Source: Nitrospinota bacterium (lineage in GTDB: Bacteria; Nitrospinota_A; UBA7883; JACRGQ01). From it: 64,000 bases of DNA. The DNA lies in contig JACRGQ010000016.1 of the NCBI GenBank assembly GCA_016217735.1, positions 1-64,000 of the forward strand. The letters are read 5' to 3'. The notes under the pieces are model-generated. The model saw only the letters and a list, made by a program, of their open reading frames with translations. It was not told where the DNA came from and did not search any database. Positions within the stretch are counted from its first letter, which is position 1; the number at the start of each line of letters is the position of its first letter. The translations under genes and the position numbers were made by a program. Of this stretch, positions 32,133-48,281 are shown one piece after another.

Positions 32133-34466
32133 TTACTTGGGGTTGGCTCCGCCAAGGTCGGGGGCGATAGAGTGCATGAATTCGACCGCGAGGGCGAAGT
32201 CGGTGCCTATCTTCTTGCCGTTGTATTCGCGCTTTTCGGCGATGACCGGCACGCCGCCTTTGTTGGTCACGTGGCAGGCGGCGCACTTGATCGGGCCGTG
32301 GCTGCCGTCCGCGTTCATCGATGCGGCCTGCTTAAAGGAGGTTTGATCCACCTTCGGGCTGGCCGGATAGAGGCCGTGGATCGATTGGTGGCACGCCTGA
32401 CAGGCGAGGCCGGAGTGGCCTTTGGAGTAGCGCATCAGGCTGTATTTTCCGGGCTGGTTGATCGGGAAGGCGACGCCGCCCTGGCCTTCGACGAACGGCG
32501 CGCTGTGGCAGTCGGCGCAGTGCGGTTCGCCAGCCGAGAGCCAGTAGTCGCGGCCGTGGGTGGCCGCTGAATACGGCACCGCCATGCCGCCGTCGATCTT
32601 GTCGCTCGGGTTGGCCGAGAGTATCTGGACATTGATGTCGCCGTCTTCGTCCTTAGTCGCCACCGGGCCGCCGTTGGCGATCTTGATGACCGCGATATCC
32701 GGCACGGTGCGTTCCTTGCCCCAGGTCAGGAGCACGCCGTTGTCCTCGTTGGTCACCTTCGGATCGATGTAGCGGTCTATGAGGGTTTTTTCATCGACGC
32801 CGATGGCTTCCGCTATCTGGGCGAGCGACTTGTTGCGCAACGTTTCCCCTTCGCCCGGCTTAAAGGCCGATTTCAGGTTGTCGCGCTGATAGAGTTCGCG
32901 GGAAAGCTGGTTGTGGCAGTTGGTGCACCAGATGCCCTTGTATTTGTCTCCTTCGTAGGCCACATTTTTTTTCAGATATTGACCCACGGCGTTGAGGTGC
33001 TGTTTGCTCTTGAGTTTGGCGGTATCCGGGTTGCTGTGCGCGTCGCGGCCCACGAAGCAGCCGCCGGCGGCGTCGCGGTTATCCGCTTTGGCGAAGGCGT
33101 TTTCCCCGGTCTTGGTGATCGGGTAGCCCTTCATGCTCCGGTCAAACCGATGGGCCGGGTGGCAGCCCTGGCAGGAACCGGTGCGGCCCTTGCTGTCCGA
33201 CAACGGACGGTTCTTGATGTGCGCGAAGTGCAGCGCTTCGGTCAGCGCCATAATCACGCGTCCCTTGTCTTCGGCCTTGGCGCCGGGCACCACTTCGCCC
33301 ACCGTTTTGGAGGAGAGCTTGGCGATGACGTTGTCCGCGTGGCAATCCTGGCACAGCACCGCCTGACGGCCGAGGCGGTTGTTGGTCGCCTTCGGGTTGT
33401 AGTTTTTCAGGAATTCGGTGCCGTGCTTGTCGTCGTGGATTTCCATGATGGAAATGGCTGTGCCTTTCAGGCTGGCGAACCAGTCGGAGGCGCCAACCGA
33501 TTTCCAGTAGTTCATTTCATCCTTGTACTTGTTGAACTTGGCGCCGTTGGCATTGGCGTTCGAGTGGCAGTTGAAGCAGTTCGGCACGTCAATCGGGTTG
33601 GTGCCGGTAAACGACACCGGTTTGCCGGTGGTGGAATCGATGACCGCTTTGCCGGTTTTTTCGTCCACCAGCGTTACTTTCGCCTCTTGATAGGGCTGGA
33701 TGTCGGTTTCGTCCAGCCGCAGCATTCCCTTCACCACGTCCTTGTCGTAGAAGCCGGTGAGCGGCAGGCCGAGCGCATCCCAGATGCCGGGGTTGGTCAG
33801 CACGATCGGCACGTTGTCCAGCACGGGGCTTTTGGTGTAAACGATGGTTCCCTTGTCGCCGGAGTAGTGGAGAAAGCCGTTGGATACCGGCTGGCCGGAT
33901 GGCCCCGCGTCCTGCGGGATCGGAATTTCGACGCCGACGCGCAGTTTTTCGCTGTCCTTGCTGGTGCCGTTCGGATTGGTGCCCGCAAGGTCGGCGTAGA
34001 CATAGAGGTGGCGGAAGTAGGCGTTCGCCACGCTTTCGTTCGGCTCGTAGGGGTTGCCGTTGCCGTTGATGTCGTATGGCGCGTTCCAGTACGCCATCTT
34101 GTTCCCTTCGGAGTAGGAGTTGCCGACATGTTCGTAGTGCAGTTTGTACCGTTTGTTGCCGTCAACCAGCACTTCGTGGTTTTTCGGATCGGCTTCCAGC
34201 ACCTTCGGCAGCTTGTCGGCGCCGCTGTCCAGCCTGCCGTGGCGGACGACCTGGGCCTGCACGGAGTTGTACGGGGGGAGAACGCAACAGTAGGTGAAAT
34301 CGAAGCCGGTGCAGTGCATGCCAAGCTCGTAGTTGATCGAGATGACATAGTCATGCCCCGCGTCCTTCGCCGCTTCCGCCACCATCGGTTGCGCCGCCGC
34401 GCCGTAACCGAAGAAGAGGGCCGCGAGGAACAACGGCATTCTACAGACAGACCACCACTTGTTCAT
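32133..34466 (-). CDS. Exported heptahaem c-type cytochrome
   Basis: 777 residues with a signal peptide. Seven CxxCH haem-binding motifs are present in order: CFNCH, CQDCH, CQGCH, CTNCH, CADCH, CQACH and CAACH. The CFVGRDAH segment between the third and fourth could be a decayed or unusual site. A ~280-residue N-terminal region without haems starts with NYELGMHCTGFDFTYCCVLPPYN, a motif I have seen at the start of other large multihaem cytochromes of unknown function. It is downstream of the dsr genes and the DUF302 gene on the same strand, so it may be a periplasmic electron acceptor for sulfur oxidation, although this is inference. The start codon ATG 34466 is preceded by AAAAGGAGG. Confidence 0.85.
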   Translation of the reverse strand: MNKWWSVCRMPLFLAALFFGYGAAAQPMVAEAAKDAGHDYVISINYELGMHCTGFDFTYCCVLPPYNSVQAQVVRHGRLDSGADKLPKVLEADPKNHEVLVDGNKRYKLHYEHVGNSYSEGNKMAYWNAPYDINGNGNPYEPNESVANAYFRHLYVYADLAGTNPNGTSKDSEKLRVGVEIPIPQDAGPSGQPVSNGFLHYSGDKGTIVYTKSPVLDNVPIVLTNPGIWDALGLPLTGFYDKDVVKGMLRLDETDIQPYQEAKVTLVDEKTGKAVIDSTTGKPVSFTGTNPIDVPNCFNCHSNANANGAKFNKYKDEMNYWKSVGASDWFASLKGTAISIMEIHDDKHGTEFLKNYNPKATNNRLGRQAVLCQDCHADNVIAKLSSKTVGEVVPGAKAEDKGRVIMALTEALHFAHIKNRPLSDSKGRTGSCQGCHPAHRFDRSMKGYPITKTGENAFAKADNRDAAGGCFVGRDAHSNPDTAKLKSKQHLNAVGQYLKKNVAYEGDKYKGIWCTNCHNQLSRELYQRDNLKSAFKPGEGETLRNKSLAQIAEAIGVDEKTLIDRYIDPKVTNEDNGVLLTWGKERTVPDIAVIKIANGGPVATKDEDGDINVQILSANPSDKIDGGMAVPYSAATHGRDYWLSAGEPHCADCHSAPFVEGQGGVAFPINQPGKYSLMRYSKGHSGLACQACHQSIHGLYPASPKVDQTSFKQAASMNADGSHGPIKCAACHVTNKGGVPVIAEKREYNGKKIGTDFALAVEFMHSIAPDLGGANPK

Positions 34467-34636: not shown

Positions 34637-35527
34637 TCAATTGGTCAACCCCTTCATTGTTTCCTCTATGTCTCCCGGGGTGGACATGATCTTGCCGAAA
34701 GTTCCCATGGTCAGCAGCGGCCAATGCAACGCGATCCGGTACCGGCCATGCAGCATGGTGGCTTTTTTATCCACCAGGATTATTTCGTAGGGGAGAGCGG
34801 CGAGGTGGTCTTCCCCGATGATCGGCAAAAAATGCGCTTCGCCGGTTTCTTTGTTTCCTAACGCAACGCCGAACACGGCGGTTTTCGCCGATTGGCCGAT
34901 GATCTCATACACGGGGGCCGCTCCCCCTTTTTTGTCGGCGAGGTTTTTCCGTATTTTTTCCAATCCCTCTTCGAAAGAGCCGAAGCTCTTCAGCGTCACC
35001 GGGTCGTCGAAATATTCCATGCCGATCATGTAGTGGTAGTGTTCCAGCTCTTTGGCGTTAAGGGCGCCGCCAAAGGGGACGAGGTCTTGCTTGACCGCGA
35101 CCTGAAGCGCCTGTTTGACGAGATCGTCGATCTTCATGAGCGGCGCTTCGTGCGCCTTGAATTCTTTCATCAGGTAGGCCCGGAAGAGGTATGCGGGATT
35201 GACCAGGGAAACGGCGGTTTTCCCCCCGGTTTCCATTAGTCCGACTTTAAGCGCGGCGGCAAGGAAGCCGCGGTCTTTCACCCGCGCCAACTCGTCCTGA
35301 AGCGCTTGACCGGTGAAAACGATCACCTTCAGCGAGGGCTTATCCTCCGGGCTGTATTCACCGATGATGGCAAAGCCGGCGGTTTCCAGAGCGTCTTTTA
35401 CTTTTTGGGCGGTATCGGCGATATTCGCCTCGACCGTGGCTTTGTAAAAGGCGTGATGGCTCTCGGCCGCTTGCGCCGCGCCGCAAACAAGGAACAGCGC
35501 CGTAAGAAACGAAACAAAAGTCTTCAT
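34637..35527 (-). CDS. Exported DUF302 domain protein
   Basis: 296 residues with a signal peptide (MKTFVSFLTALFLVCGAAQAAE). It has two parts of DUF302-like alpha/beta character: about 25-150 (VKDALETAGFAIIGEYSP) and about 165-290 (ALPYEIILVDKKATMLHGRYRIALHWP). DUF302 proteins occur in many sulfur- and metal-metabolising bacteria with no established function. ATG 35527 is five bases after GGAGG. It is located directly after dsrP and before the heptahaem cytochrome on the same strand, which suggests a periplasmic accessory to this electron-transfer locus. Confidence 0.7.
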   Translation of the reverse strand: MKTFVSFLTALFLVCGAAQAAESHHAFYKATVEANIADTAQKVKDALETAGFAIIGEYSPEDKPSLKVIVFTGQALQDELARVKDRGFLAAALKVGLMETGGKTAVSLVNPAYLFRAYLMKEFKAHEAPLMKIDDLVKQALQVAVKQDLVPFGGALNAKELEHYHYMIGMEYFDDPVTLKSFGSFEEGLEKIRKNLADKKGGAAPVYEIIGQSAKTAVFGVALGNKETGEAHFLPIIGEDHLAALPYEIILVDKKATMLHGRYRIALHWPLLTMGTFGKIMSTPGDIEETMKGLTN

Positions 35528-35549
35528 CCCCACCTCCGCATTGTTAAGT

Positions 35550-35578
35550 GTCATTCTGAGCGCAGCGAAGAATCCCTT
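35550..35578 (+). repeat. Single-arm copy of the GTCATTCTGAGC dispersed repeat
   Basis: This is an isolated copy of the repeat that appears as a complete inverted pair at 50452-50517; the first 25 bases are identical. Translated, it gives the well-known spurious peptide CHSERSEES found in many bacterial genomes. It sits between the dsrP stop and the DUF302 start. Confidence 0.75.
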
Positions 35579-35595
35579 AAATGACCCATTGGCCG

Positions 35596-36816
35596 CTATT
35601 TCTTTTCACCGGCGGTTCCCTCGTCGATAACCGCTTTATCCGGCATCATTTCAAAAAATTTCAGGCCCAGCGCATAGAGGAAAAAAACAAAGGAAAGTAT
35701 GCCCGCGCCGAACAGGATTTCCATCGGGCTTATGCAATAATCGATCACCCGTCCGTCCTGAAACGGCCCCGCGATGTGGTAGCCGGGGAACATTTCCATC
35801 GGCATCACCTGCCCGGGAATGACGATGATGTAGCGTTCCGCCAATACGCCGATAACGACCAGCGCCGAGGCGAAGAGTATCCACTTTACCGATTTGCCGG
35901 TGGCGGGGTTGGCGAGGATGACAAACGGGAAGAGAAGGCCGCAGCCGATCATCCCGATCCAGAAAATGAGCGAATACTTGTTGCCGGAGAGCAGGAGAAA
36001 CTTCTGCACCGCGTAGTTCCCCGGCCAATAGGAGCGGGTGACATTCTCGATGAAGACGAGATAGGCGACGACGACGATGAACGCCGCGAGATAGAGGCCG
36101 AGGCGGCGTATCAGCTCGTCGTCGAGCGCGCGGCCGGTGAGTTTGAAGGTGCCGTAGAGCACCATGATCATCAGCGCCGTGCCGGAGGAGAGAGCCGCCG
36201 CGATGAAGCTGGGGGGGAGCAGGGGAGAGCTGTACAGCTCGCGCGCGCCGACGAAGCCGAAGATGGCCCCGGTGCCGCTATGCACCAGCACCGCCCAGAA
36301 GACGGCGGTGTAACCAAGCAGCTTTACCAGTTTTTCCCTGTTGTTGAACATCGCCCAGAGGTAGACAAAGCAGATGCCGATGTATGCGCTGTAGAGCATC
36401 CCGTTGAGTGAGAACATGGAACGGGGATTCATGCTGAAGAAGGGGACGAGGATGCGGTCCGGCCGGCCCCAATCGAGGATGATGCACATCAATGCCCCGA
36501 TGAGCAGAAGCGCGGCAAGCAGCGCCGATATGCGGGCCAGCGGCTTGAACTCCGTTCTGCCGAAAACGGACGAAAGCGCGGAAAGCACCAGCGATCCGGC
36601 GGAAAGGCCGATGAGGTATACCGCCATCACGATGGGGAAGCCCCACGGAATGGCGTTGGTCATGCCGGTGATGTGATGGCCGTGGAGGTACATCATGTAC
36701 GCGGACCAAAAGCCGCCGAGCGACAAAAGTCCCAGCATCACGACAAGGAGCCGGAAGCCGGCGGAGTTTCCCCCGATGGCGGAAAATTTCGTTTTCATGT
36801 TCGCCATGCCGTTCAT
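35596..36816 (-). CDS. dsrP: DsrP, NrfD-family quinone-interacting membrane subunit
   Basis: 406 residues with about ten transmembrane helices and no haem motif, as in the NrfD/PsrC family. Typical segments are GHHITGMTNAIPWGFPI near the N-terminus, IILDWGRPDRI, and VFWAVLVHSGTGAIFGF. As the last subunit of DsrMKJOP it exchanges electrons with the quinone pool in the cytoplasmic membrane. Its start overlaps the dsrO stop by four bases (ATGA), showing translational coupling. Last clearly assignable gene of the dsr operon. Confidence 0.93.
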   Translation of the reverse strand: MNGMANMKTKFSAIGGNSAGFRLLVVMLGLLSLGGFWSAYMMYLHGHHITGMTNAIPWGFPIVMAVYLIGLSAGSLVLSALSSVFGRTEFKPLARISALLAALLLIGALMCIILDWGRPDRILVPFFSMNPRSMFSLNGMLYSAYIGICFVYLWAMFNNREKLVKLLGYTAVFWAVLVHSGTGAIFGFVGARELYSSPLLPPSFIAAALSSGTALMIMVLYGTFKLTGRALDDELIRRLGLYLAAFIVVVAYLVFIENVTRSYWPGNYAVQKFLLLSGNKYSLIFWIGMIGCGLLFPFVILANPATGKSVKWILFASALVVIGVLAERYIIVIPGQVMPMEMFPGYHIAGPFQDGRVIDYCISPMEILFGAGILSFVFFLYALGLKFFEMMPDKAVIDEGTAGEKK

Positions 36817-37580
36817 ATCCCCGTGTAAAAGACTTTGGGTTCAAGGCCGAGGTCTTCGCGCACCCCTTTGGTGGCGACGGCGCGGATGTATTTGACGATG
36901 GCGCTTTCGGGGTTGTTGAGGTCGCCGAAGATCATCGCCCTTTCGCCGGATTTGTCGCACGCCTCGACGCAGGCGGGAATTTTTCCCTGGTCGATGCGGT
37001 GGGCGCAGAAGGTGCATTTTTCCACCACGCCGTGGCTCCGCTTCGGCACATCGCGGTTGGTCCACTCCGTCGTTTCCTTGAAGACGAAGGTGCGCGCCTT
37101 GTAGGGGCAGGCGATCATGCAGTAGCGGCAGCCGATGCAGCGGTGTTTGTCTATCATCACGATGCCGTCGTGACGGGTGAACGTGGCGGCGACGGGACAG
37201 ACGTGCTGGCACGGGGGCTGTTCGCAATGGTTGCACAGGAGCGGTAAATGCTTTTCCGGCCCGCCGCGCTCCGGCGTCAGCGTCACCTTGCGTATCCAGT
37301 GGCCGTCATACCGTTCGTCGCCGAAAGCGGGGACGTTGTTCTCGGTGCGGCAGGCCGCGGTGCAAGCGGTGCATTGCGCGGTGCATTTGTTGTTGTCGAT
37401 GACCATGCCCCACCGCGCTTTCCCTTTCGGCGGGATTTCAAGCGCCGTATCCGCCGACGCATTCTGTTCTTCGCCGGCATGCGCCGACGCGCTGTAGAGG
37501 GTGATGCCGTTGCCTATCACCGTTCCGGCGATGGCGGCGGCCCCCATTTTAAGAAGCGAACGTCGATCCAGTTCGGACAT
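36813..37580 (-). CDS. dsrO: DsrO, Tat-exported ferredoxin-like iron-sulfur protein
   Basis: 255 residues. A twin-arginine signal (DRRSLLKMGAAAIAG) marks export of the folded protein to the periplasm. Four clusters of cysteines for [4Fe-4S] centres are seen: CTAQCTACTAAC, CNHCEQPPCQHVC, CIGCRYCMIAC and CTFCAHRI...CVEAC. It passes electrons between DsrJ and DsrP. ATG 37580 follows GGGGAAG, 10 bases after dsrJ; an earlier in-frame start would sit inside dsrJ and precede the Tat motif. Confidence 0.95.
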   Translation of the reverse strand: MSELDRRSLLKMGAAAIAGTVIGNGITLYSASAHAGEEQNASADTALEIPPKGKARWGMVIDNNKCTAQCTACTAACRTENNVPAFGDERYDGHWIRKVTLTPERGGPEKHLPLLCNHCEQPPCQHVCPVAATFTRHDGIVMIDKHRCIGCRYCMIACPYKARTFVFKETTEWTNRDVPKRSHGVVEKCTFCAHRIDQGKIPACVEACDKSGERAMIFGDLNNPESAIVKYIRAVATKGVREDLGLEPKVFYTGI

Positions 37581-37590
37581 ATCTTCCCCT

Positions 37591-37941
37591 TTATGGCAGA
37601 TAATGGCAGTCAAAACATTCCGGCTGTACGCCGGCGTAGCTGTGGCAGCGGTCGCAGAACTCCGCCCGTTTGGCGTGGCATTTGCCGCATCCTTCGATGT
37701 GGTACTTGTGGCCGCGTTCCCCTCCGCGCACGATGAGGTCGCGCTGATGCGCCAGCAGCTTCATGTGGTTGGCGCGCATCCAGTCCGCCGGTTCCACGCA
37801 TTCGGTGGCGTTGACCGCTTTGGCCAGTTGGGGGGCGGGCGCTTTTTTGAACAGCCCGTTGCCCGCGGCGGCATAGAGCAGCGGCGCGGCCAGGAGCGCC
37901 AGCAGCGTGATGGCTATTGCGATGGATCCTTTTGCTTTCAT
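37591..37941 (-). CDS. dsrJ: DsrJ, triheme cytochrome c
   Basis: 116 residues. An uncleaved signal anchor (about 5-24) holds a small periplasmic domain with three CxxCH motifs (CGKCH, CDRCH, CFDCH) near the C-terminus. The distinctive DsrJ haem with His/Cys coordination could involve the isolated Cys in ATECVEP. Its start overlaps the preceding small gene by four bases (ATGA). Confidence 0.95.
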   Translation of the reverse strand: MKAKGSIAIAITLLALLAAPLLYAAAGNGLFKKAPAPQLAKAVNATECVEPADWMRANHMKLLAHQRDLIVRGGERGHKYHIEGCGKCHAKRAEFCDRCHSYAGVQPECFDCHYLP

Positions 37942-38135
37942 TTCTTCTTTTTAAACTTCAAAAAGCCTTTTTTAGGGAAGGCGCCGGTTTTATATTTATC
38001 GGTGCATAACGCCGCGCGGCCGCAGGTCTGCACGTTGCCGCACGGGTGATCCCAGTCGGTGCGGGTGCAGCCGCCGCGGCCGAAGACACCTTTAAATTCT
38101 TTGCCATCTTTTTTCCCGTTTCCGGTTCCGCTCAC
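37938..38135 (-). CDS. Small four-cysteine protein encoded between dsrK and dsrJ
   Basis: 65 residues, not recognised. Four cysteines in a C-x8-C-x5-C-x5-C arrangement (Cys23, 32, 38, 44) occupy the middle, and the last 15 residues are strongly basic (FPKKGFLKFKKKK). There is no signal peptide or membrane helix, so it should be cytoplasmic. Its GTG start overlaps the dsrK stop (GTGA) and its stop overlaps the dsrJ start (ATGA), so it is translated as an integral part of the operon. The cysteines could bind zinc or an iron-sulfur cluster. Canonical dsrMKJOP operons do not have a gene here. Confidence 0.75.
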   Translation of the reverse strand: MSGTGNGKKDGKEFKGVFGRGGCTRTDWDHPCGNVQTCGRAALCTDKYKTGAFPKKGFLKFKKKK

Positions 38136-39625
38136 TTGCCGCCAAGCTGGATGGCGTTGCCCACCAGTTGGTGAACCCCGGCCACCGCCTCCATTGGAAT
38201 GTCATAATAGGGCAGCACCTTGGTGAACTGCGCTTTGCAGATGGCGCAGATCATCGCCATGGTGTTCACCCCCTGATTGTCCATGACCTCTTTCAGCGCG
38301 GCGGCTTTCGGCGCGGCGCCTTTCACGCGGACTTCCAGCAGTTCGTCGCTCAACAGCCCGCCGCCGCCGCCGCAGCAGAAGGTCTTTTCGCGGTTGGCTT
38401 CCGGATCCATCTCCACATATTTGTTGCAAACCGCCTTGAGGATGTTGCGCGGTATCTCGAACTGGCCGCCCGGTTCGGTGCCCATCCGGCTGGCGCGGGC
38501 CACGTTGCAACTGTCGTGGTAGGTGACGGTGAACTCGTCGTTGGCGCTTTTATCCAGCCTGAGCGCGTTGCGGCGGATAAGCTCTTCGGTGAACTCGCAG
38601 ATGTGCGTCGGCACCGCGTGATTCTTGTCGAGGTAGTCGAACGGCCCCGCCAGCGTGTTCCAAAAACTGTAGGCGACGCGGTAGGCATGGCCGCATTCGC
38701 CCACGACGATCCGCTTCACCCCCAACTCGCGCCCGGCGTCGGCGATGCGGGTGGCGATCTTTTTCGTATTGTCATAGCTGCCGATGAACATGCCGAAATT
38801 GGCGAACTCGGAAGCGTGCGAACTGAACGTGTAGCTGATGCCGGCGGCGTGAAACACCTTGGCGTAGCCGACCAGCGAATCGACATGCGGCGAGCTGAAG
38901 AAGTCCGCCGACGGCACGATCAGCATCACCTCGGCCCCTTTTTGATCCAGCGGGAATTTCACGTCGACGCCGGTGGCTTCCTTGACATCCTCTTCCAGAA
39001 ACTCCAGCGTGCCGATGAGCGCGTCCTTCGGAATGCCGAGGTTGTTGCCGGTGTCATGCACCTTGGCGATGATTTCGAGGGTGTATTTTTGGCCGACGCC
39101 GATGGAATCCATTATTTCACGCGCCGCCATCGATATTTCAGCGGTATCGATGCCAAAGGGGCAAAAGACCGAGCAACGGCGGCATTGCGAACATTGGTGG
39201 AAGTAGGTCATCCACTCCCGCAACACCTCTTCGGTGAGGTCCTCGGCGCGGGCGAGGCCGCCGAAAAGCTTGCCGCCGAGGGTGAAGTTTTTGCGGTAGA
39301 CTTTCCGCATCAGTTCCTGCCGGGCCACCGGCATATTGTTGGGGTCGCCGGTGCCGAGGAAGTAGTGGCACTTGTCGGCGCATGCGCCGCACTTCACGCA
39401 GACATCGAGAAACAGCTTCAGCGATTTGTATTTGCCCATCAGCTCGTTCATTTTTGCCAGCGCCACTTCCTTCCAGTTGTCCACGCGCTTGGCGGGAAAG
39501 CCAAGCTTGGAAAGATGCGCCTCGGACGCGGCGTGATATTTCACATGGGCCATCGCGCCGGGCTTGATGGCGGGGACGCTTACCCCGTTTTCTATGTCAG
39601 GTATCTCGAAATCAGCTTTGGCCAT
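38132..39625 (-). CDS. dsrK: DsrK, HdrD-like disulfide-handling iron-sulfur subunit
   Basis: 497 residues. Two ferredoxin-type clusters (CVKCGACADKC near residue 75 and CSQCRRCSVFC near 145) are followed by the CCG-domain region. The catalytic [4Fe-4S] motif appears as CCGGGGG near residue 415, as in HdrD of heterodisulfide reductases. DsrK is the cytoplasmic face of DsrMKJOP and acts on the DsrC disulfide/trisulfide. Peripheral, no membrane helices. It starts 13 bases after dsrM. Confidence 0.95.
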   Translation of the reverse strand: MAKADFEIPDIENGVSVPAIKPGAMAHVKYHAASEAHLSKLGFPAKRVDNWKEVALAKMNELMGKYKSLKLFLDVCVKCGACADKCHYFLGTGDPNNMPVARQELMRKVYRKNFTLGGKLFGGLARAEDLTEEVLREWMTYFHQCSQCRRCSVFCPFGIDTAEISMAAREIMDSIGVGQKYTLEIIAKVHDTGNNLGIPKDALIGTLEFLEEDVKEATGVDVKFPLDQKGAEVMLIVPSADFFSSPHVDSLVGYAKVFHAAGISYTFSSHASEFANFGMFIGSYDNTKKIATRIADAGRELGVKRIVVGECGHAYRVAYSFWNTLAGPFDYLDKNHAVPTHICEFTEELIRRNALRLDKSANDEFTVTYHDSCNVARASRMGTEPGGQFEIPRNILKAVCNKYVEMDPEANREKTFCCGGGGGLLSDELLEVRVKGAAPKAAALKEVMDNQGVNTMAMICAICKAQFTKVLPYYDIPMEAVAGVHQLVGNAIQLGGK

Positions 39626-39638
39626 GATGTAAAAATCC

Positions 39639-40367
39639 TTATTTGGCGGCCCAAGGGTTTATGTGGCGGCGTTCGCGCGGGTCGTCCACCATGGTCCGGG
39701 TCGGGCTGAAAAAAACGCCGCCGGCGTGCATCAGCTTGCTGAACGGAAAATAGGCGGCAAGCATGAGCGCCAGCGTGAAGTGGATGATGAATGCCGGGTG
39801 CGGCGGCATATCCACCGGGCTGAACATCACCAGCCCCAGGAGGAAATGCTTGATGCCGGTTATGTCGGCGTGGTTTACGAATCTGAGGCCGAGGCCGGAA
39901 AGGGCGATCAGCAACAGCAGGAGCAGCACGAAGTAGTCGGCCGGAGACGAAATCCATGCGTAGCGGTCGACCGCTTTGCGGCGGATCAAGAGGTAGATGA
40001 GCGGCAGCGGCAGCAGCATCGCGCCGAGTAGCGCCACCGGCTGGATTTGCGCCAGCAGCGGCGAAACGGGGTGGATGAAAAGCCGCAGGTGCCGCGCGAA
40101 GACGGCGATGAGGATGACGTGGAAGGCGTAGCCGCCGGCCCATGTCCAGCGGTTTCCCTTGAACAGGTCGGCGAACAACGTGATGTTTATCAGGTTGCGC
40201 GCCACAACCCCGCCCATCGTGGCGGGGTGGGGGGTGACGGGAATGCTGAGCGGATTCGGCGTAACGGCATACCCCCAAAGCTTGTGGAGCAGGCCGCCGA
40301 AGAAAACGGCGGCCCCCGCATAGCTAAGGACGACGTAGACCAGCGATAACGGCGACAATCCGCTCAT
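39639..40367 (-). CDS. dsrM: DsrM, NarI-like cytochrome b membrane subunit
   Basis: 242 residues with five to six transmembrane helices and histidines positioned for two b haems (for example in GYAFHVILIAVFARHLRLF and FIIHFTLALML). It anchors DsrK and connects it electronically to the quinone pool. Shorter than some DsrM proteins but complete at both ends. Lies between dsrC (21 bases) and dsrK (13 bases). Confidence 0.93.
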   Translation of the reverse strand: MSGLSPLSLVYVVLSYAGAAVFFGGLLHKLWGYAVTPNPLSIPVTPHPATMGGVVARNLINITLFADLFKGNRWTWAGGYAFHVILIAVFARHLRLFIHPVSPLLAQIQPVALLGAMLLPLPLIYLLIRRKAVDRYAWISSPADYFVLLLLLLIALSGLGLRFVNHADITGIKHFLLGLVMFSPVDMPPHPAFIIHFTLALMLAAYFPFSKLMHAGGVFFSPTRTMVDDPRERRHINPWAAK

Positions 40368-40388: not shown

Positions 40389-40724
40389 TCAAACACAGCC
40401 GGTCGGTTTCGGCAGGCCGCCGATCTTGCATGCCTGCTTCGCCGGGCCGCCCGGAAACAGTTCGTACAGGTACTTGGTGTTTCCTTTTTCTTTGCCCAGT
40501 TTCTTGCCGATCTCTTTCGTGAGAATGCGGATCATCGGGGCGATCTTGTATTCCTTGTAGTACTCGCGGAGAAAGTTCACCACTTCCCAGTGGTTGGGGC
40601 CCATCACGACCTCTTCGCTGGCCGCCAGGGCGTTGGCCACTTCCAGATTCCAGTCGTCGAGATTCGTCAGATACCCGTCTTCATCCACCTCGATTTTTTT
40701 GCCGGCTATTTCCATAGTCGCCAT
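40389..40724 (-). CDS. dsrC: DsrC, sulfur-carrier/substrate protein of DsrAB
   Basis: 111 residues. The C-terminal arm has the diagnostic pair of cysteines: the penultimate Cys (PTGCV) and a second one separated from it by ten residues (QACKIGGLPKPTGC). This identifies true DsrC rather than TusE or RspA-type relatives. DsrC carries sulfane sulfur to or from DsrAB as a trisulfide and is recycled by DsrMKJOP. ATG 40724 follows AGGAGGGG, the strongest ribosome site of the operon, as expected for an abundant carrier. Confidence 0.97.
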   Translation of the reverse strand: MATMEIAGKKIEVDEDGYLTNLDDWNLEVANALAASEEVVMGPNHWEVVNFLREYYKEYKIAPMIRILTKEIGKKLGKEKGNTKYLYELFPGGPAKQACKIGGLPKPTGCV

Positions 40725-42186: not shown

Positions 42187-44154
42187 TCAATTCATGTCGA
42201 TGAAGCCGCACGGGCATTCTTCAAAACATTTTTTGCAGCCGGTGCATTTGGGAAGGTTAAAAGCGTAGTGCTGCCCCTTCGGAAGCTTGTTGATCGCCTG
42301 ATCCTGGCAGTAGAGATAGCACTTTTCACAGTCGAAACACATACCGCAGCTCATGCAGCGGTCAGCCTCGTACTTCGCCTCTTCAAGGGAGAGCTGCCCC
42401 ACCACTTCGTCGAACCCGCGGTTCATCCGCTCGGCCAATTCAATGCTTTTGCGCCGCGTCATCGGTTTCGCTTCGTAGTGGTCGAGCCGCATGCTTTCGG
42501 CCAGCACGGTTTTGCGCTCTTTTACCGGCTGGGCTTCGCGGTTCATCAGGACGTTGTCGATATCCAGCGCGCGGCGGCGTCCCTCGCCGATGGCGGCGGT
42601 GGCAAGCGCGATGGGGGCGGTGATGTCGCCGCCCGCCCACACCTTGTCTATTTGCGTACGCCCGTTGGCGTCCACGGTGAGCCATCCCTTTTCGTTCCTG
42701 AACATTTCGAGGCCGGTGAAGTCCGGCTTTTGGCCCAGCGCGCCGATCAACGTGTCGCATTCCAGCACGAATTCCGAGCCGGGGATTTCCACCGGTTTCG
42801 GGCGGCCCGAGGCATCGGCGTCTTTCAGTTCCATACGGATGAGCTTCACGTTCAGCCCCGCGCCGGTTTTTTCGGCTGAAACAGGCGTGCAGAGGAATTC
42901 GTATTTCACGCTTTCGGCCTCCGCTTCCCCAACTTCGTGCTTGATGGCCGGCATTTCCCCGCGCGAGCGGCGGTATACCAGCGTTACCTCCGCGCCGAGG
43001 CGGCGGGAAGTGCGCGCCGCGTCTATGGCGGAATCGCCCGCGCCGACCACGATTACGCGCTTGCCGACAGCCACTTTTTCGCCGTGGTTGATCTTGTTAA
43101 GGAATGCCGCGGCGGTCCAGACCCCTTCAACATTTTCACCCGGCACGCCCAGCTTCATCCCCTGATGCATGCCGAACGCCAGGTATACGGCGTCGAAGTT
43201 TTTTTGCAGATCGTCGAACCGCACGTCTTTCCCTATCCTTGTATTGTATTTGATTTCAACGCCGAGGTCGACAATCCGCTGAATTTCCGCGTCCAGCACG
43301 GCATCCGGCAGGCGGTACGAGGGAATGCCGTAGCGAAGCATGCCGCCGGCTTTTTCGTGCATCTCGTGAACGGTGACGGCGTAACCGCGCCGCGCCAACT
43401 GGTAAGCCGCCGAAAGCCCGGAAGGGCCGCCGCCGACAACGGCCACCCTCTTGCCGTTCTTTTCGTTAACCAGCACGCGGAGTTTCAGGCCGTTGGCGAT
43501 GGCGTAGTCGCCGATGGCCCCTTCGACGCTGTTGATGCCAACGGTTTCGTCTTTCGCGTTCCGGTTGCACCCCGTTTCACACGGATGGGGGCAGATGCGC
43601 CCCATCGTGGAGGGGAAGGGGTTGCTGTTCGTCAGCGTGTAAAAGGCGGACTCGAATGAATTATCCTCGCGGATGTCGGTGAGCCATTCCCGGATGTTTT
43701 CCCCCGCCGGGCAGTTCATGGAGCAGGGCGGGTTTTTTTCCACATAGCTGGGGCGGAGGTTGGTGGAACTCTTCTTTCCCGACGTGGAACTGCCGCCACC
43801 GCCCCGCATTTTGAACGCCGCGCGGCTGAAGCTTTTCACTTCGCGCCCCCCGGCGGGAGCGGCGGCCGGCTCGGCGGCTTCCTGCTTCGGGGCCGAAGTG
43901 TCCACCTGCGAGGAAGCTCCTTCTTCGTGGGGAATTTCGATGGTCGAACCGAGGAAATAGCCGTATACGAGCTTCCCCGAATCTATCATCGGTCGTATGG
44001 CCTCCTTCACGTCGTCCTTGTCGACAACGTCGGACCCGTATTTCTCTTTCATCAGCTTGATGAGGTCGGTGGCTTTAAACTTCTTCTTGCCGTAATACTC
44101 TTCTATTACGGCAAAGATCGCCGCGCCCAGTTCCTCAACCGTCGGTTTGGACAT
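42187..44154 (-). CDS. dsrL: DsrL, NAD(P)H:acceptor iron-sulfur flavoprotein
   Basis: 655 residues. An N-terminal ~75-residue helical extension is followed by a Pro/Ala/Gly linker. A GltD-like core has N-terminal cysteines (CSMNCPAGENI, CPHPCETGC), an FAD motif (VAVVGGGPSGLSAAYQL) and an NAD(P) motif (VIVVGAGDSAIDAART). The C-terminal ferredoxin domain has two [4Fe-4S] clusters (CMSCGMCFDC...C and CTGCKKCFEECPC). DsrL binds DsrAB and shuttles electrons to or from pyridine nucleotide. It is the marker gene of the oxidative pathway, although a second type occurs in some reducers or disproportionators. Confidence 0.95.
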   Translation of the reverse strand: MSKPTVEELGAAIFAVIEEYYGKKKFKATDLIKLMKEKYGSDVVDKDDVKEAIRPMIDSGKLVYGYFLGSTIEIPHEEGASSQVDTSAPKQEAAEPAAAPAGGREVKSFSRAAFKMRGGGGSSTSGKKSSTNLRPSYVEKNPPCSMNCPAGENIREWLTDIREDNSFESAFYTLTNSNPFPSTMGRICPHPCETGCNRNAKDETVGINSVEGAIGDYAIANGLKLRVLVNEKNGKRVAVVGGGPSGLSAAYQLARRGYAVTVHEMHEKAGGMLRYGIPSYRLPDAVLDAEIQRIVDLGVEIKYNTRIGKDVRFDDLQKNFDAVYLAFGMHQGMKLGVPGENVEGVWTAAAFLNKINHGEKVAVGKRVIVVGAGDSAIDAARTSRRLGAEVTLVYRRSRGEMPAIKHEVGEAEAESVKYEFLCTPVSAEKTGAGLNVKLIRMELKDADASGRPKPVEIPGSEFVLECDTLIGALGQKPDFTGLEMFRNEKGWLTVDANGRTQIDKVWAGGDITAPIALATAAIGEGRRRALDIDNVLMNREAQPVKERKTVLAESMRLDHYEAKPMTRRKSIELAERMNRGFDEVVGQLSLEEAKYEADRCMSCGMCFDCEKCYLYCQDQAINKLPKGQHYAFNLPKCTGCKKCFEECPCGFIDMN

Positions 44155-44164
44155 GACGTTTCCC

Positions 44165-45253
44165 TTAATACTTCATGTGGGTGGTGGTGCGGAACGTTTT
44201 GTTTGCGCCGCGGAAGTCGTCGATGTGGTACCGGGTGAACGGCAGACCGGTGATCTCGAAGAACTTCGGCCAGCTTATCCGCTCGATCCATTCGCCCATC
44301 CGCTCCCACGGTTTTGCGTTGTCGGCGTAGACTTCGACGATTTTTTTCACCGCGTCGGTCACTTCGGGCCAGCGGGGCGGGTTATTCGGGAGGTAGGGGA
44401 TCGCCAGTTTCGAGAACAGGGGGCGGGTGCGCGCGTTGGCCACCTTGCCGCCCACCCAGATAGACACGCCGTCGTTGTTGGGATCGGCCAGCGGCATCGC
44501 CGGGCAGGTGGTGTAACAGTTGCCGCAGTACATGCATTTTTCCTTGTCCACTTCCACCGAGGGTTTGCCGTTCACGGTGGCCGGCCGGATGGCGGCGGTG
44601 GGGCAGGCGGCCACGGTGGTCGGAATTTCGCAAAGGTTTTTCAGGTTTTCGTGGTTGACGTACGGCGGCTTGCGGTGAATGCCGAGGATGGCGATATCGG
44701 AGCAGTGAACCGCGCCGCACATGTTGAGGCAGCAGGCGACGGCAACCTTCACGCGTTGCGGCAGCTTATGGCTGCCGAAGTATTCGAAGAGGTCGTCCAT
44801 GATGACCTTGGAAAGGCCGGAGGCATCGGTGGCGGAGGTGTGGCAGTGTATCCATCCCTGCGTGTGTACCACGCCGGAGATGGAGTTGTGCGTGCCGCCG
44901 ACCGGCACGCCGTACGCCTTCAACTCGTTGATGAGCGGCTCAATGTTGGCCTTGTCGGCCAGCAGGAACTCCACGTTGTTGCGGCTGGTGAAGCGGACGT
45001 AGCCGCCGCTGTGCTTTTTCGCCAGCGCGGCCACCCAGCGGATGAACTGGGTGCTCACGAGGCGGGCGCTGGCGGCGCGCACGGTGTAGATGGCGTCGCC
45101 GCTTTCGGCCACGTGCATCAGCACGCCGGGCTGGGGGGCGGTGTGGTATTTCCACCGCCCGTAGTTCTTCTTGAGCAACGGGTGCATGAACTTCATGTGG
45201 TCGGGCGGCCCGACGTCGGTTATTCTTTGCGGGGCGGCATCAGCAGCGGCCAT
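44165..45253 (-). CDS. dsrB: Dissimilatory sulfite reductase beta subunit
   Basis: 362 residues. Sirohaem/[4Fe-4S]-binding cysteines lie in [11 protein letters not shown], and an inserted ferredoxin domain follows with ACPTAAIRP and [11 protein letters not shown]. Substrate-pocket residues lie in [11 protein letters not shown]. With DsrA it forms the cytoplasmic alpha2beta2 enzyme that interconverts sulfite and protein-bound sulfane sulfur. It begins 61 bases after dsrA. Whether it is of the oxidative clade needs a phylogeny; neighbouring dsrEFH and dsrL favour that. Confidence 0.97.
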
Positions 45254-45273
45254 GTTCTGTTTCTCCCTTAAGT

Positions 45274-45287
45274 TTAAAACGTTTTAA
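45274..45287. repeat. Perfect 14-base palindrome between dsrA and dsrB
   Basis: TTAAAACGTTTTAA sits about 25 bases before the dsrB start codon, in the widest gap within the operon core. It could be a processing or regulatory signal or chance. Confidence 0.3.
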
Positions 45288-45314
45288 CCGTTTGGCGTAT
45301 CCGGCGGCGGATGT

Positions 45315-46514
45315 TCAGTCTTCGCCTTCTTCCACGTTGTAGAACACATACGGGTTTTCACGCGGGTGCATGACCATGTACGGATTCGGCTCCAGCCCGA
45401 TGGCTTCGACGAAGTTGGCAAGACCGACGCGGTTGACCAGTTCGCCGACGCGCTCGCGGTTATTGCCGTATTCCTCCCAGAAATCCCATATCCGCTGTAT
45501 GAGGTCTTTCATTTCCGTGTACGGCGGCTCCATCTTCATGAAAGGGACGATGACCGAACCCATCAGCGCCCCTTCCACAATGGGGGCTTTCGCGCCGAGC
45601 ATGATGGCGGCCCCTTTTTCCTTGCCGACGCGGAGCGCCTTCGGCATGACGTTGAGGCAATGCATGCAGTGGACGCATTCCTTGTCGTTGATCTTCATGG
45701 TCTTGCCGTCCCAGTCGATGCACTTGGTCGGGCAGAGGTCGCAAACATCGCGCTTGATGTCGAAACCGGGGATATTCGTATACTCGGGAAGCGCCGCCTG
45801 GTCGATCCGTATCTGGTCGCGCCATACGCCGATGATGGCGAAATCGGAGCGGGCGATGCCGGATACGCAGTCGTTGGGGCAGCCGGACATCTTGAACTTG
45901 AACTTGTAGGGCCACGCCGGGCGGTGGATGGTATCCTGAAATTCGCGGGTGATGACTTCGGTAACATCCAGCGTGTCGTAGCACGACATTTCGCAGCGGG
46001 CCGGGCCGACGCAGCAGCTTGGCGTGCGCGTGGCGGAGCCGGAGCCGCCCAAATCCCATCCGGCGTGCGTGAGGGCCTGGAAGGTCGGCTCAAGCCCGTC
46101 GGTCTTGGTGCCCAGCAGAATTATGTCGCCGGTGGAGCCGTGCAGGTTGGTCAGTTTGGATCCATGTTTGTCCCATATGTCGCACAACTCGTTCAGCGCC
46201 TCGGAGGTGTAAAACCAGCCGGCGGGGGGAAGGATGCGCATGGTGTGGAATTGCGCCACTTCGGGAAATTGCTCGGCTTTGCCGGAGTAGCGGCCGATGA
46301 TGCCGGAGCCGTAACCGCGCACGCCGACAAGGCCACCGTGCTTCCAGTGCCCCATCCGGTCGTTATAGGACTGCTCGACCTGCCTCAGCAGGTCCACGGC
46401 CATCGGGGTGTCCGTGGCGGCGCGCTTGATTTCCGTCACGAAGCTGGGCCACGGGCCTTTCTCAAGCTCGTCCAGCATGGGGGTCTTTGCGTTTATCTTC
46501 GGGTTTTTGTCCAT
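45315..46514 (-). CDS. dsrA: Dissimilatory sulfite reductase alpha subunit
   Basis: 399 residues. The catalytic cofactor cysteines appear as CCVGPARCEMSC and GCPNDC. The inserted ferredoxin domain follows (CDLCPTKC, CVHCMHC). Substrate-binding arginines are in RGYGSGIIGRYS. It forms the alpha subunit of the sirohaem-containing DsrAB. ATG 46514 follows GAGGGAG. Upstream is the HEAT-repeat gene (32-base gap). Confidence 0.97.
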   Translation of the reverse strand: MDKNPKINAKTPMLDELEKGPWPSFVTEIKRAATDTPMAVDLLRQVEQSYNDRMGHWKHGGLVGVRGYGSGIIGRYSGKAEQFPEVAQFHTMRILPPAGWFYTSEALNELCDIWDKHGSKLTNLHGSTGDIILLGTKTDGLEPTFQALTHAGWDLGGSGSATRTPSCCVGPARCEMSCYDTLDVTEVITREFQDTIHRPAWPYKFKFKMSGCPNDCVSGIARSDFAIIGVWRDQIRIDQAALPEYTNIPGFDIKRDVCDLCPTKCIDWDGKTMKINDKECVHCMHCLNVMPKALRVGKEKGAAIMLGAKAPIVEGALMGSVIVPFMKMEPPYTEMKDLIQRIWDFWEEYGNNRERVGELVNRVGLANFVEAIGLEPNPYMVMHPRENPYVFYNVEEGED

Positions 46515-46546: not shown

Positions 46547-47209
46547 TTATGCGCCCGTCGGCGGCGGGTGTGCGTTGCTATTCAACGCCAAGGCGGCAAG
46601 CGCGCGCCCGGCGACTTCTTTCACGGTCCAACGGTTCATCTCATCGTTTTCGTAAATGGACACTTCGCGGTTGTCGTCCACCAACAGCCGCAGTCCGGGG
46701 GCCGCCTCCGCCACGCGGAGTTTTCCCAATGCCCAGGCGGCGTTTCCCCTGATCGCGGCATCGGCGTCGTTTAACAAGGCGCGCAGTTCCGGCACCGTGT
46801 CCAGCACCGGGGCGCGATGGATTTCCCCCACGCGGCCGATTCCCCACAACACGCCGGGGAGCATCCCCCGGTCATCAAGGTAGTGGGTGGTTACGGGGAT
46901 AACATCGCGCGCGAGATCGATGTTGTGCCGCGCCACTTCGGCGATCACCTGCGGCGAGCCTTTGCCAATGTTGCCCGACTCGTCGTTAAGCTGCCACGCG
47001 AGGCGGCTCATGTACCGCCTGATGGAAGAGGGGGCGGAGAGAGCCAATCGGCCCCAGACCGCCGCGGCCCGGTGGAGCAGCAGTTCGTCCCCCTCATAGA
47101 GGATGGACACGAGGCTCCGCAGCCAGTGCTTATCCTTTATCGCCATCTGTTCCACTTCCTCAAAACGTTTCGTCCGCAACAGTTCTTTCAGTTGTTCCCG
47201 TTGGGGCAC
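46547..47209 (-). CDS. HEAT-repeat protein embedded in the dsr operon
   Basis: 220 residues, all helical. HEAT/PBS-lyase-type repeats are visible (LLHRAAAVWGRLAL, LPGVLWGIGRVGE, AAIRGNAAWALGKLRV, TVKEVAGRALAALAL). No catalytic residues, no cysteines to speak of, no signal peptide: a cytoplasmic scaffold or adaptor. It starts at GTG 47209, four bases after the dsrH stop, and precedes dsrA by 32 bases. Position suggests interaction with DsrEFH or DsrAB. HEAT-like genes have been seen near dsr genes in some other organisms, but it is not one of the named dsr genes. Confidence 0.8.
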   Translation of the reverse strand: MPQREQLKELLRTKRFEEVEQMAIKDKHWLRSLVSILYEGDELLLHRAAAVWGRLALSAPSSIRRYMSRLAWQLNDESGNIGKGSPQVIAEVARHNIDLARDVIPVTTHYLDDRGMLPGVLWGIGRVGEIHRAPVLDTVPELRALLNDADAAIRGNAAWALGKLRVAEAAPGLRLLVDDNREVSIYENDEMNRWTVKEVAGRALAALALNSNAHPPPTGA

Positions 47210-47212
47210 GGT

Positions 47213-47506
47213 TCATATCCAGGGGCAGACATTGTGCTCCGCCACCAAATCCACAAACCCGGCGTAATCCACCACCCGCACCCCGTCGATCAGCTTATCG
47301 ATGCCGCGGGCGGCGAGGTCTTCTTTCAGCGCATAGACGGCGCGCCCCTGGAGCGCGTCCTTAACCAGTCCTTCCAGCGCGGTGCCGGCCTGCGCGCCGT
47401 ATACCCCGTCTTCGTAGAGCAGCACCGGGGCCTCTTTGCCCGCGAAGCGGAGGCAGCTTTTCAGATTGTCCGTTGTAAACGGCGATTTGTTAACGGTGAA
47501 AAGCAT
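47213..47506 (-). CDS. dsrH: DsrH (TusB-like) sulfurtransferase subunit
   Basis: 97 residues of the DsrH/TusB family, recognised by the N-terminal LFTVNKSP and Cys18 in NLKSCLRF, a mid-protein ALKEDLAARGI, and the C-terminal PWI. It forms the DsrEFH alpha2beta2gamma2 hexamer that relays sulfane sulfur from TusA to DsrC. It follows dsrF by 15 bases. Confidence 0.92.
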   Translation of the reverse strand: MLFTVNKSPFTTDNLKSCLRFAGKEAPVLLYEDGVYGAQAGTALEGLVKDALQGRAVYALKEDLAARGIDKLIDGVRVVDYAGFVDLVAEHNVCPWI

Positions 47507-47521
47507 TTTTCATTCCCTTGC

Positions 47522-47920
47522 TTAAAACGGCAGAATGACCTTCTGCGCGCTGATGACGTTCGCGATTTCTTCGGCTTCAACAACTTCAACGCCGGTGACC
47601 AGGTCTTCTTCGGTGAGTCCCCGCGCTTCAAGCGAGGCGCGGTCGACATAAAGGTGTTCCACGCCGTACGGTTCCAGCACTTTGAAGGTTTTGGCAAACT
47701 CCTTGATGCCAAGGCCGGTTGTATCCTGTCCCTTTTTCAGGCAGTAAACGCCGTCGTCCACAAAAGCGGCGGTGATATCCTGGTCGTAGGCCGCCATGAT
47801 GAGGATTACTTCCAGCCCCTCATAAGGGTAGATGGTGCCGTGCGGCGCCCTCTTGAAGATGAAGAGGAACTTTGTCTTCTCTTCGCTTGTTTCCTCTTCA
47901 CCGCGTATGTCGTCGGGCAT
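47522..47920 (-). CDS. dsrF: DsrF (TusC-like) sulfurtransferase subunit
   Basis: 132 residues of the DsrF/TusC family. KFLFIFKRAPHGTIYPYEGLE begins the fold after an acidic 15-residue leader, and the conserved Cys is in FVDDGVYCLKKG. ATG 47920 is one base after the dsrE stop with GGAG seven bases upstream. A TTG at 47932 would also be in frame but would overlap dsrE. Component of the DsrEFH hexamer. Confidence 0.92.
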   Translation of the reverse strand: MPDDIRGEEETSEEKTKFLFIFKRAPHGTIYPYEGLEVILIMAAYDQDITAAFVDDGVYCLKKGQDTTGLGIKEFAKTFKVLEPYGVEHLYVDRASLEARGLTEEDLVTGVEVVEAEEIANVISAQKVILPF

Positions 47921-47921
47921 G

Positions 47922-48281
47922 TCAGTCTCCAAAGGTTATCAGGCGATCGGCGTTAATTCCCAGTTCCGTCAACTGCCCCAGCCCCGATATGCGCGATCCC
48001 GGCGCCAGGTTGCCGTCCGTTATCCCGCGGCGTTTGGCGGCGGCGATGCAGGCGATGGTGTCGATCTTGTGCTGTTGAACGAGGTCGGACCAGCGCTTGC
48101 TGATGTGGCGGTCGTCCTGCGGGGGGGTCATAAGGCTGGTGGCGTTATGAACGCCGTCGTTGTAGAAGAATATGCCGATGACCTCGTGCCCCTTTTTCAG
48201 AGCCGCCGTCGTGAAATGGTAAGCGCTATCAGAGGCCTGATGCTGATATGGCCCCTCAAGAACCAGTACAGCGAATTTCAT
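47922..48281 (-). CDS. dsrE: DsrE (TusD-like) sulfurtransferase subunit
   Basis: 119 residues. The active Cys sits at residue 78 (TIACIAAAKRRG), exactly the position of the essential Cys78 of Allochromatium DsrE. FFYNDGVHNA and the N-terminal PYQHQASDSAYHF segment are family features. It is the sulfur-accepting subunit of DsrEFH and the first gene of the operon. ATG 48281 follows GGGGGA. A sigma-54 promoter lies about 70 bases upstream. Confidence 0.95.
   Translation of the reverse strand: MKFAVLVLEGPYQHQASDSAYHFTTAALKKGHEVIGIFFYNDGVHNATSLMTPPQDDRHISKRWSDLVQQHKIDTIACIAAAKRRGITDGNLAPGSRISGLGQLTELGINADRLITFGD

Follow-up and report, generated by a model that had tools for sequence, protein, structure and literature searches.

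A small gene in a dsr operon of the Nitrospinota, which are counted among the 'transitionary phyla' for their mixture of oxidative and reductive dsr genes (PMC11406059), may bear on the question of what determines the direction of the Dsr pathway. The window, i.e., the whole stretch of 64,000 nt analyzed here, lies on contig 16 of a 2.53-Mb assembly that is 95% complete (genome G000). Between dsrK and dsrJ it contains a frame, orf65 (37938-38135, minus strand), for which the earlier note had proposed obligate membership in the operon and a possible role as an assembly factor or additional subunit of DsrMKJOP. The question is whether orf65 belongs with the membrane complex whose genes flank it or with another part of the pathway, and the interest of the locus lies in the link of orf65 with the type of DsrAB.

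The orf65 frame and the surrounding operon

The dsr genes of the window form a minus-strand run in the order dsrE-F-H, a DVU0298-family HEAT-repeat gene, dsrA, dsrB, dsrL, a cbiA-like gene, dsrC, dsrM, dsrK, orf65, dsrJ, dsrO, and dsrP. The dsrE, dsrF, and dsrH genes (47213-48281) were assigned by sequence, position, and conservation in relatives, and the HEAT-repeat gene (46547-47209) by NF045662 (138 bits). The dsrA (45315-46514; TIGR02064 and tree) and dsrB (44165-45253; TIGR02066) genes are of the reductive-type set, a label that, like 'oxidative', rests on the DsrD-like gene, on a DsrA tree without a named reference set, and on published work that assigns most Nitrospinota DsrAB to the oxidative bacterial type (PMC10839748). 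They are followed by a DsrD-DsrL fusion (42187-44154), which combines a DsrD-like domain (residues 1-80) with a DsrL core (residues ~135-655). The dsrC gene (40389-40724; PF04358/TIGR03342) encodes both C-terminal cysteines (CKIGGLPKPTGC). A short form of dsrM (39639-40367, 242 aa; NF038037, E 4e-46) and dsrP (35596-36816; NF045798, E 4.5e-26) match their models below the cut-offs and are supported also by position. The immediate neighbors of orf65 are dsrK (38132-39625, 497 aa; NF045796, 574 bits) and dsrJ (37591-37941), encoding a 116-aa cytochrome c subunit whose match to NF038038 (E 1.2e-25, 90 bits) is slightly below the 100-bit cut-off; dsrO (36813-37613; NF045797) comes next.

Two further minus-strand genes lie downstream of dsrP, encoding a 777-aa multiheme cytochrome (32133-34466) and a 305-aa protein (34637-35554). 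The cytochrome gene is found beside the dsr operon also in G005, G006, G007, and G002, and the 305-aa gene in G005, G006, G008, G002, G003, and G011. Both products are candidate extra redox partners.

The orf65 frame, read from GTG to TGA (65 codons), encodes MSGTGNGKKDGKEFKGVFGRGGCTRTDWDHPCGNVQTCGRAALCTDKYKTGAFPKKGFLKFKKKK. Its sole in-frame start is the GTG at the dsrK stop codon, where the two genes have AAGTGA in common (GTGA overlap), and its stop lies within the dsrJ start, with AAATGA in common (ATGA overlap). The product is a small Cys4 protein, predicted to be soluble, with a basic C-terminal tail and cysteines C23, C32, C38, and C44 in a C-x8-C-x5-C-x5-C arrangement; neither a signal peptide nor a membrane segment is apparent. 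The description in the earlier note thus holds for the 65-residue frame, both overlaps, the cysteine core, and the tail, to which the strand can now be added.

The note's further remark that the protein resembles no known Dsr protein was borne out by searches of Pfam, NCBIfam, and the PDB, in which orf65 showed no similarity to DsrM, K, J, O, or P; it did not match DsrD (PF08679) either. With one or both known copies as queries, no significant family match was obtained in Pfam, NCBIfam, PHROGs, or the PDB, and a match to HoxU (E 0.11) was attributed to chance. An origin of orf65 as a remnant of DsrL or DsrD was rejected, since the operon contains both in intact form at other positions. At the dsrK-dsrJ junction, scans for promoters, terminators, and Rfam families yielded nothing above chance and no known RNA element. 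The AlphaFold2 model of orf65 was uninformative (pLDDT 53).

A homologue in a second genus and the distribution of orf65

A homologue lies between dsrK and dsrJ in G007 (82% complete), which belongs to another genus of the same Nitrospinota family. A profile search, as suggested in the earlier note, revealed no further credible member among 289 genomes drawn from across the domain; the profile was built from these two sequences, so that distant relatives could escape it. The homologue is 62 aa long and 64% identical to orf65, begins with an ATG that overlaps the dsrK stop in the same way, and is followed by dsrJ. The G007 contig with dsrK terminates inside its frame, and a second contig, overlapping by 138 identical bases, holds the whole homologue and then dsrJ. 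Loss of cysteines, one of the two results that the note had named as refuting, was not seen: each of the two known copies retains the full set. The two proteins have in common RGGCTRT-x-WD-x-PC-x-NV-x2-CGRA-x2-C-x-DKYKTG-x-F and end in basic tails (KKGFLKFKKKK in G000 and RKSFLARFRKK in G007).

Comparison of the two copies over 58 codons gave dN 0.29 and dS 1.36, a ratio of ~0.21 that is approximate given a dS near saturation and the small sample; by the same method, dsrJ, to which orf65 is similar in this respect, has 0.28 and dsrK 0.13. The distance from dsrK to dsrJ is ~180-195 nt in both carriers, unlike all other junctions. Judging from the homologue with its four cysteines at the same position between dsrK and dsrJ, and from the dN/dS of ~0.21, orf65 is a real gene, and it is very likely translated.

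The gene is nevertheless not obligate in the operon, as the earlier note had supposed. G005 and G006, of the same genus as G000, have the whole operon and a DsrK 96% identical to that of G000, and lack the frame, the other result that the note had named as refuting; their dsrK-dsrJ gap of 7 nt makes this a clean absence, without room for a remnant. All other adjacent dsrK-dsrJ junctions examined, within and outside the phylum, are likewise free of orf65 and span no more than 36 nt. The two genomes G000 and G007 are the only carriers found. Three further phyla with dsr genes yielded no orf65 at the sensitivity of the two-sequence profile, other reductive-type dsr loci examined do not contain it, and a scan of GTDB contigs gave only G007's own record among the matches listed. 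Scans of IMG/VR, phage, and plasmid sequences returned no other credible match. The family is previously undescribed and very narrowly distributed. Weak profile matches were rejected in G215, G172, and G190 (cysteine core missing or out-of-frame readings) and in G004 (where an era-like GTPase gene is read out of frame), and those in G133, G057, and G015 (internal stops, or E near 0.1) were set aside. In the other Nitrospinota families (f2-f6; loci L014, L016-L021, and L023-L025), dsrJ is never located directly after dsrK.

Two types of dsrAB-L block within one genus

Gene-by-gene comparison divides the operon into two parts. The dsrE, F, H, cbiA, C, M, K, J, O, and P genes, together with the flanking multiheme cytochrome gene, follow the species: those of G000 are 75-96% identical to their counterparts in G005 and G006, and less so to those of G007. 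For dsrA, dsrB, and dsrL, G000 is closest to G007 (81, 83, and 74% identity, respectively, the last with the DsrD domain at the N-terminus counted in), and the two have the HEAT-repeat gene in common, whereas identity to the genes in the same operon slot of G005, G006, and G011 is ~50-55% (DsrK of G011 is 71% identical to that of G000). One genus thus contains two dsrAB-L types, reductive in the window (42187-46514, minus strand) and oxidative in G005 and G006 (L046 and L047), suggesting differential loss or replacement. Wherever typing was possible, family members without orf65 proved to have oxidative-type DsrAB (~52% identical), their dsr operons being conserved in other respects.

The trees agree with this division. 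In the DsrA tree, G000 and G007 are joined (100/100) on the side of all lineages with a DsrD-like gene beside dsrB; a long branch leads to a separate group of G005, G006, G011, and G017. In the DsrK tree, G000 is placed with G005 and G006 (100/100), and the orf65 label then needs two changes. G000 and G007 have diverged as much in their reductive-type DsrA (81% identity) as in DsrK (80%), and G005 and G011 as much in their oxidative-type DsrA (72%) as in DsrK (71%). This agreement in both types suggests that two dsr sets may have been present in the ancestor, one or the other of which was lost in its descendants; genomes with both sets are described in other phyla (PMC10591310).

The DVU0298-family HEAT gene was found in 3 of the 24 Nitrospinota genomes, G000, G007, and G012, which are the three with the reductive DsrA type. 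It lies between dsrH and dsrA in the window and adjoins dsrA also in G114, G381, G308, and G170. AprA does not separate the two genome types: G000, G005, and G006 all have it, and it was not found in G007 (82% complete).

Assignment of the DsrD-like domain relies on homology to dsrB-adjacent genes and on their position: the window's domain alone did not reach the Pfam DsrD model, and a profile search did not recover the solved DsrD structure. Residues 1-80 of the window's DsrL are 39-53% identical to the products of small genes beside dsrB in a dozen other genomes, and one member of the alignment matches Pfam DsrD (E 2.4e-4). In G000, as in G007 (L049, 4090-6048), the fusion has its full length, and it would place the DsrAB activator and its NAD(P)H electron donor on one polypeptide; a literature search of limited extent returned no description of it. 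In G012 (L087, 13845-15300), from another Nitrospinota family, the DsrD-like domain forms the C-terminus of DsrB, an arrangement already known in Bilophila according to a title cited in PMC7596348. In the G012 locus, dsrL comes after dsrK, and dsrJ, O, and P lie at other positions.

These comparisons are suggestive of orf65 presence tracking the type of the dsrAB-L block and not dsrK. The gene accompanies the reductive-type set in 2/2 cases and occurs in 0/5 of the other relatives, which by counting, with kinship ignored, corresponds to 1/21; the association is therefore suggestive, not proof. Hitchhiking of dsrAB-L and orf65 as one block is unlikely, because the intervening cbiA, dsrC, dsrM, and dsrK genes follow the species. 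The absence of orf65 from G012, with its reductive-type DsrA and DsrB-DsrD fusion, shows that reductive-type DsrAB does not require it. Differences between dsr operons within the genus are chiefly the dsrAB-L block, the DVU0298-family gene, and orf65, with DsrMKJOP, DsrC, and DsrEFH the same; this leaves few candidates for direction-specific parts and provides a natural comparison between close relatives.

Proposed role of orf65 and comparison with known systems

Our tentative reading, held with somewhat less than even confidence, is that orf65 encodes a small metal-binding accessory of the reductive-type DsrAB-DsrDL module that helps it work with the DsrK side. The four cysteines would hold one metal site, most likely for zinc and less likely for an Fe-S cluster. 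The protein would be cytoplasmic and, by virtue of the overlaps with dsrK and dsrJ, made in step with DsrMKJOP. It would serve the putative partners DsrAB, the DsrD-DsrL fusion, and the DVU0298-family protein, and might help DsrAB-DsrDL/DsrC work with the cytoplasmic side of the membrane complex, perhaps by a link through DsrC and docking at DsrK; the complex does not otherwise differ from that of relatives whose DsrAB is of the oxidative type. No sites specific to the two carriers were found above control level in DsrK, J, M, O, P, or C; docking on DsrK thus gains no support, and the result argues mildly against a tightly co-evolved DsrMKJOP subunit. A stronger version, in which orf65 is an adaptor linking a DsrMKJOP in common with sulfur-oxidizing relatives to reductive DsrAB-DsrD-DsrL, so that pathway direction is changed and the complex kept, seems unlikely.

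The proposal of the earlier note survives best among the alternatives if restricted to some lineages, with orf65 as an extra subunit or assembly factor of DsrMKJOP, e.g., for Fe-S insertion into DsrK. The position between dsrK and dsrJ with an overlapping start in both carriers fits such a role, as do the four cysteines of a protein in which no signal or membrane segment is apparent. A core subunit should, however, be present with dsrK and dsrJ wherever the complex occurs, and orf65 is not: relatives with a nearly identical DsrK and a complete operon do without it, no residues of DsrK or DsrJ co-vary with it, and its distribution follows dsrAB-L, in keeping with the reductive-type dsrAB, DsrD-DsrL, and DVU0298 set. 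A general role in DsrMKJOP is thereby contradicted, and we consider the lineage-restricted role rather unlikely.

That orf65 is a small zinc-knuckle regulator, binding nucleic acid and tuning expression of the operon, is quite unlikely. The basic C-terminus and Cys4 core are compatible with it, and the best match of the G007 copy is to zf-CXXC; this match (E 0.059, 13.9 bits) does not reach the cut-off of 26.5, no zinc-finger family is matched significantly, and the junction has no known RNA element. Occurrence in two genomes only and the clean absence from congeners are what would be expected of a recently arisen orphan or a passenger gene that sits at the junction by chance, that most relatives have lost, and that has no specific Dsr role; we regard this as about equally unlikely in view of the low dN/dS, a cysteine core invariant across genera, the conserved position and overlap, and the concordance with the dsrAB-L type. 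A spurious, untranslated frame, as its shortness, GTG start, and lack of a family match might indicate, is very hard to reconcile with a conserved homologue in another genus, a dN/dS well below 1, and the unusual dsrK-dsrJ spacing in both carriers.

Among known systems, CCCH zinc fingers have a C-x8-C-x5-C spacing, and orf65 resembles these and zf-CXXC small zinc fingers in having four closely spaced potential ligands and a basic flank; where CCCH proteins have His at x3 as the fourth ligand, orf65 has Cys at x5, and there is no significant family match. The position of orf65 recalls Allochromatium vinosum, in which the gene order is dsrK-L-J and the DsrL gene thus sits between dsrK and dsrJ. 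DsrL is, however, a large Fe-S flavoprotein without similarity to orf65, and the window's dsrL is located between dsrB and cbiA. The sequence of orf65 is also unrelated to that of DsrD, the allosteric activator of DsrAB (PF08679), a winged-helix protein that lacks the Cys4 core and is encoded after dsrB; the DsrD-like domain of G000 is separate from orf65, forming the N-terminus of DsrL. In other respects orf65 is like DsrD: it is small, apparently soluble, encoded with dsrAB-type genes, and restricted to part of the dsr-bearing organisms. It also appears to track reductive-type DsrAB as DsrD does, in that both carriers have reductive-type DsrA, although not every reductive-type genome has orf65.
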